Part shown: piece after piece, positions 2,499 to 51,203 of the stretch
Layout of the letters: each line of letters begins with the position of its first letter
Position numbering within the stretch: position 1 is the first letter of the stretch
Assembly (NCBI GenBank): GCA_001897155.1
Contig: MKSF01000012.1
Span: 1 to 64,000, forward strand
Length of the DNA: 64,000 nucleotides
DNA from: Bacteroidetes bacterium 47-18
Lineage (GTDB): Bacteria; Bacteroidota; Bacteroidia; Chitinophagales; Chitinophagaceae
Direction of reading: 5' to 3'
Translations under genes and position numbers: made by a program
Notes under the pieces: model-generated
Told to the model about the DNA's origin: nothing
Seen by the model: the letters and a program-made list of their open reading frames with translations, nothing else
Databases searched by the model: none

Positions 2499-3140
2499 TT
2501 ATTTGGATTTCACCTGTATCGTCTGGTGCTTGATGTAATTTCCCGCTTCTATTTCCCTGACGATCATCTCAATATCCTTATCATCCCCGAAAGGGTCATA
2601 CTGGGTCTTAAGGTCATTATCAATAAATTTAAAGGCGGTCTGGTAGAAACGGGCGTTCACGCCGCCCTTCAGCTCTTTGATGATATCATAGCAGTTCCTG
2701 CCCGTCTGCCTGTTCACGAGCTTCACCAGTATTTTTCCCTGTGTGACGGAAAGGTCCTTCAGCTCTTCCTTGAATTTTGAATTGAGCTCAATATCCAGGG
2801 ACTCGATATATTTTTTCCTTTCCTTCCTGGTAGGATGATGACCCAGGTCCTGGTCCATCTTCTTAAGCACTCCTGCCGCCAGAACGGCATAGGGATATAC
2901 CTTGAACACATTGTACCTCAGCCTGTCGATATATTGCTTCCTGGAAGGATCCAGCAGCTCTGATTTGTACACCGGGTCCAGGAAATCATACGCAAGCGTA
3001 TCTCCGTCGTATATGATGGCCGGCAGCCATATCCCTCCCTCCCTGGGCACTTCCTGTGGCTGGGTCGGGGGTTGGGCCTGCGCACCATATATCCATCCGC
3101 AACACAATAACAGCGCCCATATATATTTTACCTGTAACAT
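2499..3140 (-). CDS. Exported DUF4294-like protein
   Basis: 213 residues. An N-terminal signal peptide is visible (hydrophobic core ALLLCCGWIYG, then AQAQ). The mature part has the IIYDGDTLAYDFLDPVY stretch and a basic, helical middle (RKERKKYIESL), resembling the Bacteroidota DUF4294 family from memory. No catalytic motif is recognised and no function is assigned. It is a minus-strand gene lying between sprA and the carboxylase gene, with its own terminator downstream. Confidence 0.75.
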   Translation of the reverse strand: MLQVKYIWALLLCCGWIYGAQAQPPTQPQEVPREGGIWLPAIIYDGDTLAYDFLDPVYKSELLDPSRKQYIDRLRYNVFKVYPYAVLAAGVLKKMDQDLGHHPTRKERKKYIESLDIELNSKFKEELKDLSVTQGKILVKLVNRQTGRNCYDIIKELKGGVNARFYQTAFKFIDNDLKTQYDPFGDDKDIEMIVREIEAGNYIKHQTIQVKSK

Positions 3141-3234
3141 GATTTTAATAAGAGTAATTAAGTCTAATGAAATTAGAACTTTTTTTTATTAAAACGTTTA
3201 ACGCCCCTATAATATTATTACAAATCCCATATTA

Positions 3235-35964: not shown

Positions 35965-35998
35965 CAAAAAAAATACCATCCTGTTTCCAGGATGGTAT
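35965..35998 (-). terminator. Terminator of the 36034-37752 gene
   Basis: Arms ATACCATCCTG (35973-35983) and CAGGATGGTAT (35988-35998), followed on the minus strand by eight T residues. Confidence 0.93.
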
Positions 35999-36033
35999 AA
36001 ATATAGCGATTATTAAATTGTATGAATCCGGTA

Positions 36034-37752
36034 TTATTCAGCGATGAATTTCACCACTTTGGAACCCTTGGAGGAATCCAGCTTAATAACGTACATACCT
36101 GCGTTCAGGTTAACATTATGGATGGTTACTATCTGGGTACCGGTCTTAAGAGCGGCAGGCTGCGTATATACTTTACGTCCGCTGATGTCGTAAATGGTCA
36201 GTTGCGCTGTCATATCCTCTACGGAAGCCACCCTTACATTCACCTCGCCGCCACGGGCAATACCCAGAACGTCCATATAGATGCTGTTCGCTTTCAGGGG
36301 ATTGATAGCAGTTCCTTTTTCAATCACTTCCATTTCGATATCATCCAGGGACCATGACCAGTTAACAGAAGTGTCGGCATCTTCTATTGACTCGTATTTA
36401 AAGGCCAGGTAAACCGGCTTAGTAACATCGATCTTGCTGGTAATATCTTTTGTCCTGCGGATGAAGGTACCTGTTGTTGCGATAGCTTCCAGGTTGCTTT
36501 CAATGGCCGTCCAGGTAGCTGTAGCAGCGTTACCGGCATAATCGGCAGAATAATAGATGCCTCTTGTCACGCCATTGCCGCCGAACCTGCGTTTCTCAGC
36601 ATAGTATAAGTTCACCTTTTCAACATCCATTCCTGAAAGATCCACCGGTATGGAAGTGATCAGGTAGTCTTCATTCTCAAAAGAAGCGGAACCTGTACCG
36701 CCATTGATGGTAACGTAAGGAGGGTTGAAGTTGGAAGTAGTATCATTGTAAGTATCACAGAACCACGTCTGCGTGCCTGCCAGGGACTCCGCCACGAAAA
36801 TACCCATTGCGCTGGCGTTACAGTTGTCAAAGTTTTCCTCGAAGTTTTGTAAGGCCAGTGCTGTAGTGGAGAATGTCCAGGTAGTGTTGTCATAGATACC
36901 GGGAGCCTTCAGGCCGCTTACATCACCTACGATGGCGGCAGAATCGTAACGTACATAGTAGCTTTTGTTAGGCTGTAACGCTACATTACTGATAGTCACC
37001 ACATTATTTACAACGCTTACGTCCTGGCTGGTCGTAACATCATATTGTACGGAGCCTGCACCTGCTTCAAACAGGGTAATGTTACCTGTACCCAGCGCCA
37101 CATCCTCGTTAAAGGTCATAGTGATCACATCAGTGGACGGATGCACCATACCTGTAGGAGAAAAGTTGGTCAGGACAAGATTGGTAGCCTGGGCTGCGGG
37201 TGTCACCCTGATATCATCAAGGTTGATCCTTACATTGGTAGATTTAACCTTGCTGAACTTAAAGCGTATAGGAGAGCTGATGTTTGGAATCAGGGTCACT
37301 TTCTGACCGGCAGAGTGTGTTCCGGTGATCGCGATCTGGCTTAAGTTGGTCCAGGTAGCTCCCTGGTTGGTTGAATACTGCACCAATACGGAGTCGCCTG
37401 TTTCCGAACCGTACATGGCCACGTAGAAGGACAAGGTATCTGCTCCCAACGGCAGGTCTTCCACCATTTCCAGGTAACCCTGGGTTCCGGTAGAATTGTT
37501 CGTTAACCTTACCCTGGCACTCTTTGCATCATTATAAAAATCAGAACCACTTACAGGTGTTCCCAAATACGTGCCCGGCATCACCCATTTCAGGTTGTTG
37601 CCCACGATAGTATCGGTAGAAGCATATGCTTTTGTAGCAGGATTTGTATTCTCAAAATCCATCACATAGGGATAGACGATCTGTGCGTCTGCCGTCGTTG
37701 CGCACAGGGTCCCTATAACCGCCGCGGATAAAACTTTAATAAAATTTCTCAT
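36034..37752 (-). CDS. T9SS cargo protein with Ig-like domain
   Basis: 572 residues from the ATG at 37752, which directly precedes the signal peptide (VLSAAVIGTLCATTADAQ); the frame is open further up but without a plausible start. Domains: N-terminal beta-sandwich (VMDFENTNPATKAYAS, WVMPGTYLGTPVSGSDF, GYLEMVEDLPLG), SbsA/Big_5-like Ig (LTNFSPTGMVHPSTDVITM), a second sandwich, and a T9SS sorting domain (LTIYDISGRKVYTQPA, NAGMYVIKLDSSKGSKVVKF). Paralogue of the 32436 gene. It has its own consensus promoter and terminator, so it is a single-gene unit. Confidence 0.87.
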   Translation of the reverse strand: MRNFIKVLSAAVIGTLCATTADAQIVYPYVMDFENTNPATKAYASTDTIVGNNLKWVMPGTYLGTPVSGSDFYNDAKSARVRLTNNSTGTQGYLEMVEDLPLGADTLSFYVAMYGSETGDSVLVQYSTNQGATWTNLSQIAITGTHSAGQKVTLIPNISSPIRFKFSKVKSTNVRINLDDIRVTPAAQATNLVLTNFSPTGMVHPSTDVITMTFNEDVALGTGNITLFEAGAGSVQYDVTTSQDVSVVNNVVTISNVALQPNKSYYVRYDSAAIVGDVSGLKAPGIYDNTTWTFSTTALALQNFEENFDNCNASAMGIFVAESLAGTQTWFCDTYNDTTSNFNPPYVTINGGTGSASFENEDYLITSIPVDLSGMDVEKVNLYYAEKRRFGGNGVTRGIYYSADYAGNAATATWTAIESNLEAIATTGTFIRRTKDITSKIDVTKPVYLAFKYESIEDADTSVNWSWSLDDIEMEVIEKGTAINPLKANSIYMDVLGIARGGEVNVRVASVEDMTAQLTIYDISGRKVYTQPAALKTGTQIVTIHNVNLNAGMYVIKLDSSKGSKVVKFIAE

Positions 37753-48323: not shown

Positions 48324-48354
48324 TTTGCATTTTAAACAGGACATAGTACCTTTG
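48324..48354 (+). promoter_or_regulatory. Promoter of the methionine leader operon
   Basis: TTTG (48324-48327), 19 bases, TACCTTTG (48347-48354): exact consensus. The transcript should start near 48360, giving a leader of about 200 bases. Confidence 0.88.
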
Positions 48355-48387
48355 TGCCGATCCAGCGTGATCAGACTGTCAAAAATT

Positions 48388-48429
48388 ATGAAATATATGT
48401 ATCCAGATATGCCGGTAATGATGTGGTAA
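48388..48429 (+). CDS. Methionine-rich leader peptide (13 codons)
   Basis: ATG to TAA encodes MKYMYPDMPVMMW: five of thirteen residues are Met, including two adjacent codons right before the end. It lies about 28 bases after the predicted transcription start and 53 bases before an attenuator hairpin, in front of a methionine/cysteine biosynthesis operon. No strong Shine-Dalgarno, which is normal for the phylum. The role is to measure charged tRNA-Met (inferred). Confidence 0.72.
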   Translation: MKYMYPDMPVMMW

Positions 48430-48558
48430 CAGCCGCAGGTTTCTAGATATTATACATTTCAATGTTTATAAAAAAATCAAGAACCTGCCCGATGGCAGGT
48501 TTTTTTAAATCCCGGCCGGAAAACCGGAGCGGGGTAACTGTTTAAAAACTATATAAAA
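48430..48558 (+). promoter_or_regulatory. Attenuator leader: antiterminator and terminator region
   Basis: GCAGGTT (48435-48441), six bases after the leader stop, is complementary to the 5' arm AACCTGC (48482-48488) of the terminator, so two exclusive structures can form. A ribosome that reaches the stop codon would cover GCAGGTT and leave the terminator free (off when Met is plentiful); a ribosome stalled at the early Met codons would leave it free to pair (on). The terminator is followed by a second GC-rich hairpin near 48511-48534. Confidence 0.7.
48482..48506 (+). terminator. Attenuator terminator
   Basis: AACCTGCC (48482-48489), loop CGAT, GGCAGGTT (48494-48501), then a T run to 48506. 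Rho-independent type, 52 bases before the first enzyme gene in the same transcript. Confidence 0.9.
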
Positions 48559-49737
48559 ATGTCTATTCAACTCCAGACCCTCCTGGCGAACATTCCCCTG
48601 TACGCCGGACTGACCGATGCCTATGGTGCCACGCACCTCCCTGTGTACAACACTGCCACCTACGACCTTAAACGGCAGCAGGATACCGAAAAAACCTATG
48701 ATTATTCCCGGAGCGACAACCCCACGCGCAACGCGCTGGAAAAAGTCTTTGCCCTGGCGGAAGAAGGCGCTTCCTGCACCTGTGTCAACAGCGGGCTTGC
48801 CGCAATAAAGCTCCTCATTGAAGCCGCCACCCGGGCCAACGATACCATACTGGTAGAGAAAAACTGCTACGGGGGTACTTTCCGCATGCTGAAGATCGCG
48901 CTGGAACAGTTCAATATACAGACCCTGTACGTGGATTTTACACAGGAGGACGCTGTGGAAGCCCATTTAAAAAACCATGACGTCCGGCTTGTATGGTGTG
49001 AATCACCCACCAATCCCAACCTGAAAATCATTGACCTGGTCCGCATAGCTGCCTTATGCAGGCAGTACGACGCTTTACTGGCCGTGGACAACAGCATGGC
49101 CACCTTTGCCAGCCAGCAGCCTTTACTGGCAGGCGCTGATTTTTCCATCTTTTCCTCCACCAAGTTCATATCCGGCCACGGCAGCGTCACTGCCGGCGCC
49201 GTAGTGAGTAAAACGCCTGAATGGGGTGAAAGGATCGCTTACCTGTCCAATGCCTACGGGCTGGCGCAATCGCCTTTTGACTGCTACCTGGTATCCCTCG
49301 GTCTTCCTACGCTGATACAACGTATGAAAGCACAGGAGCAGAGCGCGCTGCAGCTTGCCCGGTACCTGGAGCAGCAGGACTGGGTGGAGACCGTATTATT
49401 CCCCGGTCTCCCTTCGCACCCGCAATACGACCTGGCGACAGCGCAGTTACGGATCATACCATCCATCATATCAGTAACGCTCCGGGAGGCAGGTATGGTA
49501 AGCGGTATCGTCCGGAATCTCAGGCTCTTCGGGCAAAAAGTCTCCTTCGGGTGCGCGGACTCCCGCATAGAGCTGCCGGCTGATATGAGCCACGCATCCT
49601 TGTCTGAAGCAGAGTTGAACGCGCATGGGCTCAGCCGGAGGCTCATACGCCTGTCCGTAGGCCTGGAAGACAGCCGGGACCTGATCAGGGATTTTGAGAA
49701 TGCCGTTAAATTATGTGCCATATGCGAAGTCTGTTAA
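48559..49737 (+). CDS. Cys/Met metabolism PLP enzyme (cystathionine gamma-synthase/lyase type)
   Basis: 392 residues. Fold-type I transsulfuration enzyme: YSRSDNPTRNALE (phosphate-binding), NSGLAAIKLLI, ESPTNPNLKIID, DNSMATFASQQPL, and the PLP lysine in SSTKFISGHGSV at about residue 200, closing with RLSVGLED. Members make or break cystathionine or add sulfide to activated homoserine. The methionine leader in front argues for methionine synthesis. The following gene overlaps its end by 16 bases. Confidence 0.9.
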   Translation: MSIQLQTLLANIPLYAGLTDAYGATHLPVYNTATYDLKRQQDTEKTYDYSRSDNPTRNALEKVFALAEEGASCTCVNSGLAAIKLLIEAATRANDTILVEKNCYGGTFRMLKIALEQFNIQTLYVDFTQEDAVEAHLKNHDVRLVWCESPTNPNLKIIDLVRIAALCRQYDALLAVDNSMATFASQQPLLAGADFSIFSSTKFISGHGSVTAGAVVSKTPEWGERIAYLSNAYGLAQSPFDCYLVSLGLPTLIQRMKAQEQSALQLARYLEQQDWVETVLFPGLPSHPQYDLATAQLRIIPSIISVTLREAGMVSGIVRNLRLFGQKVSFGCADSRIELPADMSHASLSEAELNAHGLSRRLIRLSVGLEDSRDLIRDFENAVKLCAICEVC

Positions 49738-51203
49738 AGCACATCCCCGCCGGCAGCAGCATTCCCCTTAATAACCCGTTTGCAGTGTCCGTATCGCTGC
49801 CCACCTTGTCGGACGTTATCAAATATGAAGAAGGGGATGCGGCATTCCTGGAAAGCATGGAGACCGGCTACCCGCGTTTCTTCACTCACAGGTATGTAAG
49901 GCTGTACCTGCAACATATACGGGAGCAGCACCGGGTACCGGAAGACCGGCAACTGATCCCCGTCAACAGCTATAACGCCGTATGCCGGGTGGAAGAGCTG
50001 CTGGGCAGTCCGGTAGCGCATATCCGGGCAGGCAACTGGTATTGTATCGTTACCGCACAGGATGACCCGGATGCCGGCCGGATCAGGCATATCATACGGA
50101 ATTGCGGGTTCCTGATCAGCAGCAGGGCGCTGGCCGTTTACCTGCATGAGCTGCATATCCTGCCGCAGCTTTACCACGAAGATACTGCTCCTTATGACCA
50201 GGGCGAAACGATCATCAGGGAAGTGCTGGCCTCCTCTTACCAGACCCAGCCGGAGCATGTGCTGCTGACCAATTCAGGGATGAACGCGCTGTATGCCGGT
50301 ATCAGGGCGCTGTGCGAAAAAGCTGCCGGTAAGCGGCAGATCGTAAGAATGGGACACTGCTATATAGATACGCTGGAGCTGCTGGAAAGATGCGCATCGT
50401 CCGTATATGTGCATAAAGACATTCATGATCTCCAGGAACTGGAACTCTATCTGCAGCAGCATGCACAGCATATCGCGCTGGTATTCATCGAATCGGTCAG
50501 CAATCCTTTATTGCAGGTAGCGGACCTCCCGGCCCTGTACAGGCTGTGCCGGCAGTTTGATATCCCGCTGCTGGTAGATGCCACCTTCTCTTCCGGCTTT
50601 ATCACTACCGTATATCAGCACGCGGATGTAATAGTGGAAAGCCTGACCAAGTTCGCATCGGGCCACGCCGATATGCTTGCAGGCAGCATTGTTACGGTCA
50701 ACACGGATGTGCTGACCATTGCGGATTGCCTGCCTTACAGGGAAGCTCCTGCTATTTACGATACGGCACGGCTGGCACTGGAGATAAAAGATTACAGGAG
50801 CAGGCTGGAAAAGGTCTCTCATAATACGAAATTGCTGACAACCTATTTCCGGCAGTTCAGCCATATCATAGAAAGCATTTATGTGGCTTCCGGCAGCGAT
50901 GCCTACGCCCGCATCCGTAAAGATGCACTGGAGCCTGGCCTGATATCCCTGGTCTTCAGGGACGACCTGAGCCTGTATTACGACCGGCTGCCGGTCGCCA
51001 AAGGACCCAGCCTGGGCACGGATTTCACGCTCGTGATGCCTTATGTGTACCTGGCCCATTATGAAGCCTGCAAGAATGAAAAGGCCTATGCGGAGCTTTT
51101 ACAGGCCGGCCTCAATAAAAATATGATCCGTATTTCCGTCGGTACAGAACCCATTGAGGAGATTACCGGAGCTTTCGATGCAGTGCTGACAAATCCTGGC
51201 TGA
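49722..51203 (+). CDS. Second, N-terminally enlarged Cys/Met metabolism PLP enzyme
   Basis: 493 residues from the ATG at 49722. Homologous to the preceding protein, with NSGMNALYAGI, ESVSNPLLQVADL, DATFSSGFITT and the PLP lysine in ESLTKFASGHADML. It is about 100 residues longer: the N-terminal YPRFFTHRYVR motif, in place of the usual Y-x-R-x2-N-P-T, is separated from the SGM motif by an extra segment (AVCRVEELLGSPVAHIRAG). The overlap with the first gene suggests coupled translation and a hetero-oligomer or two-step pathway. Substrate unknown. Confidence 0.85.
   Translation: MRSLLKHIPAGSSIPLNNPFAVSVSLPTLSDVIKYEEGDAAFLESMETGYPRFFTHRYVRLYLQHIREQHRVPEDRQLIPVNSYNAVCRVEELLGSPVAHIRAGNWYCIVTAQDDPDAGRIRHIIRNCGFLISSRALAVYLHELHILPQLYHEDTAPYDQGETIIREVLASSYQTQPEHVLLTNSGMNALYAGIRALCEKAAGKRQIVRMGHCYIDTLELLERCASSVYVHKDIHDLQELELYLQQHAQHIALVFIESVSNPLLQVADLPALYRLCRQFDIPLLVDATFSSGFITTVYQHADVIVESLTKFASGHADMLAGSIVTVNTDVLTIADCLPYREAPAIYDTARLALEIKDYRSRLEKVSHNTKLLTTYFRQFSHIIESIYVASGSDAYARIRKDALEPGLISLVFRDDLSLYYDRLPVAKGPSLGTDFTLVMPYVYLAHYEACKNEKAYAELLQAGLNKNMIRISVGTEPIEEITGAFDAVLTNPG

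Follow-up and report, generated by a model that had tools for sequence, protein, structure and literature searches.

A probable methionine-codon transcription attenuator ahead of a PLP enzyme operon, and its relatives in a Met/Cys leader regulon of Flavobacterium

In the window (the whole stretch of 64,000 nucleotides analysed here), two overlapping PLP enzyme genes are preceded by a Met-rich short ORF and an intrinsic terminator, which raises the question of whether the terminator is governed by translation of the Met codons. We regard positions 48362–48508 as a ribosome-mediated transcription attenuator reading charged elongator tRNA-Met, a reading to which we assign a probability of about 0.9; because no expression data exist, the methionine response remains inferred, as do ribosome stalling, termination, and antitermination. 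The conservation of the Met codons, of their spacing, and of the pairing arms, the first rank of the leader in its genome, and the existence of a wider regulon are, by contrast, direct observations. Attenuation had been put forward in the original prediction and is now well supported, without a bench test.

Leader anatomy and the genes downstream

The Bacteroidota promoter consensus is TTTG/TANNTTTG, and the forward strand of the window reads directly TTTG (48324–48327), a gap of 19 nucleotides, and TACCTTTG (48347–48354), together spanning 48324–48354. The leader ORF on the same strand, MKYMYPDMPVMMW (48388–48429, with the stop codon TAA at 48427–48429), likewise read directly, encodes five Met, the start codon included, and carries ATGATG at 48418–48423. 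Five bases past its stop lies the antiterminator 5′ arm GCAGGTT (segment 2; 48435–48441, +), which shares its partner, AACCTGCC (segment 3; 48482–48489, +), with segment 4, GGCAGGTT (48494–48501); pairing of segment 3 with segment 2 gives the antiterminator, and pairing with segment 4, across a CGAT loop between AACCTGCC and GGCAGGTT, gives the terminator. Since GGCAGGTT leads into a run of seven T (48500–48506), segment 4 and its U tract (48494–48506, +) complete an intrinsic terminator ahead of gene 1, a feature required of an attenuator. The promoter, the Met-rich ORF, the GCAGGTT arm, and the terminator had all been named in the original prediction, and direct reading finds each of them where it had been placed.

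The 2:3 and 3:4 arms of that prediction also held, but segment 1 and a protector hairpin had been overlooked. In the predicted fold, segment 1 (48389–48407, +) pairs with 48442–48461 as a 1:2 protector helix, and folding further yields a hairpin, UGUGGU-AACA-GCCGCA (48422–48437, +; arms 48422–48427 and 48432–48437), that spans the Trp codon and the beginning of segment 2; with this hairpin and the predicted 1:2 helix, the leader would take the form of a classical four-segment attenuator. The terminator has a folding energy of −14.0 kcal/mol (z −5.1) and the antiterminator fold of 48430–48493 one of −12.5 kcal/mol (z −2.8), and the fold of 48388–48470, the region of the 1:2 helix, is weak when taken alone (z −1.4).

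Gene 1 (48559–49737, +; 392 aa) encodes a cystathionine gamma-synthase/lyase-like PLP enzyme and overlaps by 25 bases with gene 2 (49713–51203, +), encoding a PLP enzyme of 496 aa. Both belong to the Pfam family Cys_Met_Meta_PP (362.7 bits for gene 1 and 116.7 bits for gene 2). Gene 1 falls under the cut-off for each of the 25 NCBIfam models listed, 47 having matched, and the nearest NCBIfam model to gene 2 is BesB, which scores 269.8 bits where the cut-off is 800. The designation of the pair as a transsulfuration operon was therefore correct as to the Cys/Met PLP family, but it rests on the family only, no NCBIfam model lying above the cut-off for gene 1.

Homologous operons and conservation of the leader

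Outside its own genome, gene 1 reached a best identity of 41% (99 genomes, that is, its own and 98 relatives), and gene 2 elsewhere in the family one of 31% (394 family genomes, at most three candidates per genome being scored); to judge from these sequence searches, no close copy of the operon was found in its own family. Of the 394 family genomes, only the window's own contains the leader pattern, up to three mismatches being allowed, and the genus is represented solely by that genome. In the absence of close relatives in genus and family, the leader alignment had to draw on other families. Gene 2 was met at E ≤ 1e-30 in 3 of 247 phylum genomes, its own among them, and a contig profile search with gene 2 alone returned no relatives; an alignment of the gene 2 proteins from these three genomes led to 46 loci in GTDB genomes, 32 of which have gene 1 adjoining gene 2. 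Thirteen of these 32 homologous operons carry a Met-rich ORF, arm, and terminator ahead of gene 1, twelve of them in Flavobacterium and one (L072) on a contig labelled Limnohabitans, which is Flavobacterium-like in that its gene 1 clusters with F. covae in the gene 1 tree. The other 19, three of which (L079, L089, and L098) offer under 280 nt upstream, have no such leader and come from Bacteroidales, Labilibaculum and kin, Ignavibacteria, Arcobacter, Malaciobacter, Sulfurospirillum, and another epsilonproteobacterium.

The nearest known leaders thus belong to another family, in which gene 1 has about 60% identity to that of the window. In the gene 1 tree, made with 36 of 42 prepared rows (six family rows were left out, wrong genes having been picked), the window is grouped with the operon genes and split from three family/order paralogues (100/100); it is nearest by path to Flavobacterium, on a long branch whose exact placement is not fixed. 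Two gene 2 relatives (L062 and L063) were rejected, there being no Met leader ahead of their operons. In L064, which covers the surroundings of L062, a Cys-rich leader, MANCCCCCKTCQSEREA, with a terminator (about 3111–3232, minus strand; also in L082, from a genome labelled Ignavibacteria) is found instead ahead of a cysK gene that diverges from this PLP operon; it scores 26.8 bits (E 0.031) with the broader model R2 described below.

When the window leader and the 13 others are compared, ATGATG is invariant (14/14) and the adjoining codons vary. Codons of the product amino acid, expected of an attenuator, are thus both enriched in the leader ORF and kept in its homologues. Counted from the first base of the last Met codon, segment 2 lies 14 nt downstream in the window, 15 nt in 11 leaders, and 16 nt in two, which carry another arm, CCAGAG; this spacing of 14–16 nt is roughly what separates the leading edge of a ribosome from its A-site codon. 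The arms read GCAGGTT/AACCTGC/GCAGGTT in the window as against GCAGAGG/CCTCTGC/GCAGAGG in Flavobacterium, so that three places have altered together and the alternative pairing of the antiterminator with the terminator 5′ arm, a further requirement of attenuation, is kept with different letters. The expectation that homologous leaders would retain the Met codons, both arms, and the stop position was borne out in full for the codons and for the most part for the arms (segments 2 and 3 pair in 84.6% of cells in the 13 non-window leaders), but failed for the stop, which precedes the arm in the window, whereas the other 13 ORFs read through it. Covariation adds nothing to the 2:3 pairing in the 13-leader alignment, there being no double change and all shuffles scoring equally high.

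A covariance model built from the 13 non-window leaders (R1) ranks the window leader first in its own genome of 3.87 Mb, with 33.1 bits and E 0.0155. The second match there (C22; 24.7 bits, E 0.77) was discarded as a terminator having no Met/Cys leader. With a detector of terminator, arm, and ORF, seven terminator-like sites were found in the window (four on the forward and three on the reverse strand); at three of them the arm recurs upstream, and the leader site alone combines such a copy with a short ORF containing at least three internal Met. No combination of terminator, arm, and Met ORF was found on the forward strand, the only one searched, of 15 block-shuffled windows, and an ORF of 7–20 aa with at least four internal Met arose in 2 of 5000 dinucleotide shuffles of 48362–48508. 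Of the 13 leaders before homologous PLP operons the detector recovers 9, and its counts must accordingly be read as minima.

Codon content and RNA structure in the wider leader family

At E ≤ 0.001, R1 finds two to four matches per genome in all 12 Flavobacterium genomes searched and, with stricter filters, at least one match in 67 of 121 Flavobacterium genomes. The best R1 matches among the matches listed gave 58 leader loci, 54 of which could be read, the others (L149, L152, L157, and L162) being too close to contig ends. The genes behind the 54 leaders were classed by short sequence signatures, sought within about 1.2 kb downstream, as the PLP operon (12), metX (10), O-acetylhomoserine sulfhydrylase (OAHS; 19), cysH-like (9), metH (1), and homoserine dehydrogenase-like (1), with two leaders remaining without a gene class. 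The mean numbers of internal Met/Cys are 4.83/0.08 for the PLP operon, 3.10/0.70 for metX (lowered by L130, scored 0/0 though its leader is MKTTMCNMIMMMWLYAAEDIIA), 3.63/2.11 for OAHS, and 1.67/3.44 for cysH; PLP and cysH leaders differ in Cys (p = 3e-5) and in Met (p = 1.5e-4) by the Mann–Whitney test, the p values being only a guide for related sequences. Codon identity tracks the downstream gene, with Met for the PLP operon and metX, mostly Cys for cysH, and both for OAHS. The element TANNTTTG begins 25–37 nt (55 in one case) ahead of the assumed leader start in 31 of the 54 Flavobacterium leaders, as against 13 of 270 control stretches; in the window, the promoter element is 41 nt from the assumed start. 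These distances suit a promoter of the leader and count in favour of attenuation. A second type of attenuator, with arms around AGTCCTTTTGG, was noticed in the Flavobacterium sulfur cluster (L069, 5879–5974, and L071, 6509–6583), its leaders being MSNTITNKMFACCCKKCCKS and MMMNRMMHMMMCCIYIPCCQK.

For RNA structure, 35 of the 54 leaders were aligned, namely the 37 whose R1 match is preceded by an ATG at a distance of exactly 21 nt, less L128 and L170. A 1:2 helix, TGCAATA:TATTGCA, links the ORF start with the stretch 3′ of segment 2 in these 35 leaders; 89.8% of its cells are paired and 11 show double changes, none of 500 shuffles reaching either value or the covariation score, and slid registers pair in at most 48.6%. 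The terminator is paired in 99.0% of cells with 10 double-change cells, again unmatched in 500 shuffles; for neither helix is the number of doubly changed pairs, or that of pair types, unusual. The antiterminator is weaker, its arm being paired in 91.0% of cells and a second helix in 66.4%, with a covariation score near that of shuffles (88 of 500 as high). Laid on the Flavobacterium 1:2 helix, the window is out of register, with four of seven pairs non-standard; the protector 1:2 pairing is thus present in the 35 Flavobacterium leaders, whereas the window has only a predicted, differently placed helix together with the hairpin.

In all of 36 leaders, that of the window among them, the protector hairpin folds across the last Met codon together with the next one, reading UGUGG...CCGCA in most, with a mean energy of −6.1 kcal/mol versus −1.7 kcal/mol for shuffles; it also folds in all 19 further leaders outside this set (55/55 in total) and lies below the fifth percentile of the leader's own shuffles in 29 of the 36 and 16 of the 19. 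Its column covariation is not above that of shuffles, the register varying among leaders, so the support for it rests on folding. In most leaders Trp comes directly after the last Met, and any slow translation could expose segment 2, so that the leader might be supposed to sense tryptophan, or the general speed of translation, rather than methionine. Ser, Pro, Gly, Cys, or Arg codons, however, replace that of Trp in several leaders, and the hairpin still folds, keeping its form through a changed partner where the codon is UCG, CCG, or GGG, as also with UGU in L129 (UGUGUCA:UGACGCA) and with AGA in L128 and L138 (GAGAA:UUCUC). This retention suggests that the Trp codon serves as RNA structure, and with a single Trp beside several Met and with sulfur genes downstream, we regard sensing of tryptophan or of translation speed in place of methionine as most improbable.

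The broader model R2, built from the 35 leaders, also places the window leader first in its own genome (42.5 bits, E 0.001), the matches L186–L191 of the same genome being terminators with no Met/Cys leader; within the window, a match at 35969–36119 on the minus strand (24.5 bits) is a gene-end terminator and not a leader. At E ≤ 0.001, R2 has matches in 33 of 395 genomes phylum-wide, in 9 of 171 genera, some of them not sulfur leaders, and in this search the window leader is missed at E 0.001; at E ≤ 0.003, it matches 24 of 294 family genomes. Most of the 18 family loci read, of 19 with L203 left out, are gene-end terminators or unclear, and three (L192, L194, and L204) are leaders for other amino acids. 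Leaders of other specificity met with R2 (L192, L234, L194, L204, L239, and L231; genes named from their first residues) include, in the phylum, a Trp leader (WWW) before a trpE-like gene, a His leader (HMHWHH) before a hisG-like gene, and Lys/Ile/Thr-rich ones before asd-like genes; R2 also met Met/Cys leaders before a sulfate-binding-protein-like gene and an OAH sulfhydrylase.

As the 42.5 bits of the window are no better than the scores of family gene-end terminators, the R2 score alone is not decisive, and since such terminators of other genomes score equally, the locus could be a plain terminator beside a chance ORF, or else a small RNA gene whose released product acts elsewhere, without any attenuation. 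The upstream neighbour, an Nfu-type Fe–S protein gene, lies on the opposite strand, so that the terminator has no forward-strand transcript to end, and a chance ORF would not account for the codons, spacing, and arms kept in homologues or for a combination missing from shuffles; we consider such an origin very unlikely.

Control of the terminator by a metabolite riboswitch for SAM or a similar ligand, the ORF being incidental, must also be weighed. In the same genome, the homoserine dehydrogenase–OAHS–metX operon bears a SAM-I riboswitch upstream (RF00162, 77 bits; L182, 7107–7205, minus strand), and SAM-II (RF01726, 64.6–70.4 bits) occurs at three Flavobacterium loci (L119, 731–791; L122, 1172–1232; L124, 1219–1278; all on the minus strand), on the strand opposite the PLP operon and directed towards a metK-like gene; related loci have such a gene lying divergently to the operon. 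At the Rfam gathering score, however, the window has no match except one tRNA, SAM riboswitches, Bacteroid-trp, and Phe_leader not being met, and the leaders in 11 loci match no Rfam family, the best score being 33.9 bits for Phe_leader against a cut-off of 55. What is conserved, moreover, are the Met/Cys codons, which track gene function, leaving the riboswitch with only a very slight chance. Beside the SAM-I element of the resident operon lie four tRNA genes, and no Met leader was seen immediately ahead of its OAHS gene; it seems that the organism governs the resident pathway through SAM and the window operon through the charging of tRNA-Met.

Predicted mechanism and comparison with known systems

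Returning to attenuation by Met codons, we assume the following course of events. When methionine is ample, the ribosome would pass MMW and reach the stop, the protector (the UGUGG:CCGCA hairpin and the 1:2 helix) would hold segment 2, and segment 3 would then pair with segment 4, ending the transcript near 48506 at a length of about 146 nt. If charged tRNA-Met runs low, the ribosome would pause while a late Met codon occupies its A site, covering UGUGG and halting just before GCAGGTT, so that segment 2 would be free for segment 3; this 2:3 pairing would block the terminator and allow both PLP enzyme genes to be transcribed. Against such a scheme stands the expectation that a shortage of methionine should also slow initiation at the leader and so favour termination, which makes attenuation by Met codons unexpected; the regulon accordingly allows one to test directly how a cell distinguishes a lack of elongator tRNA-Met from a lack of the initiator.

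We favour, with moderate confidence, a more general reading in which one RNA chassis, the hairpin with a GCAGAGG-type antiterminator, serves a Bacteroidota sulfur regulon, its specificity being set by swapping Met and Cys codons, and in which the chassis of the window moved between families with its operon and now stands beside SAM-I. If this is true, tRNA charging is sensed where many bacteria use SAM or repressors, and one cell gauges SAM as well as charged tRNA-Met. A natural series would be available in which a single RNA design carries Met, Cys, or mixed leaders, and the phylum, on whose control of sulfur amino acid genes the PMC literature yielded little, would gain such a mechanism.

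No Rfam family and, among the papers listed, no publication was found for a methionine leader peptide in Bacteroidota, subscription papers and preprints lying outside the PMC literature searched. Lopatovskaya et al. 2010 is reportedly a survey of attenuation that could hold related predictions. That survey is cited in PMC4833913, and in the parts of PMC4833913 and PMC8305728 available to us no methionine leader peptide of Bacteroidota turned up. From the accessible portion of another source, its authors in 2010 knew of no leader peptide system beyond Proteobacteria and Actinobacteria except ermC, and added one from Firmicutes (PMC2965389); leader-like short ORFs appear in B. thetaiotaomicron in the part available of PMC7366714. 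The window very probably contains a real Met-codon attenuator, one member of a Bacteroidota regulon of Met/Cys attenuators that has apparently not been described.

Among known systems, SAM riboswitches bind SAM directly, and SAM-I and SAM-II, found near methionine genes in the same organisms, have no ORF, unlike the window leader. Bacteroid-trp (RF01692; PMC2864571, in part), which lies upstream of the trp operon of F. psychrophilum (PMC6414381, in part), concerns Trp and matches neither the window leader nor the leaders of the 11 loci. Similar in specificity is metL of Streptomyces lividans, a proposed methionine leader peptide before metNIQ; as far as the accessible part of the source goes, it differs in belonging to Actinobacteria, in preceding transporter genes, and in having three Met and three Cys in 29 residues, RNA structures not being compared (PMC8079986).

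The mechanism itself is classical, and what is apparently new, not having been found in the PMC literature, is its specificity, the protector design, and the distribution. Classical leader-peptide attenuators control the amino acid operons trp, his, thr, leu, ilv, and phe. With these the window leader shares a short ORF in which codons for the regulated amino acid abound and the set of 1:2 protector (only predicted in the window), 2:3 antiterminator, and 3:4 terminator, and it departs from them in its Met (and, in relatives, Cys) codons, in a hairpin placed on the codon after the last control codon, and in its Bacteroidota promoter.
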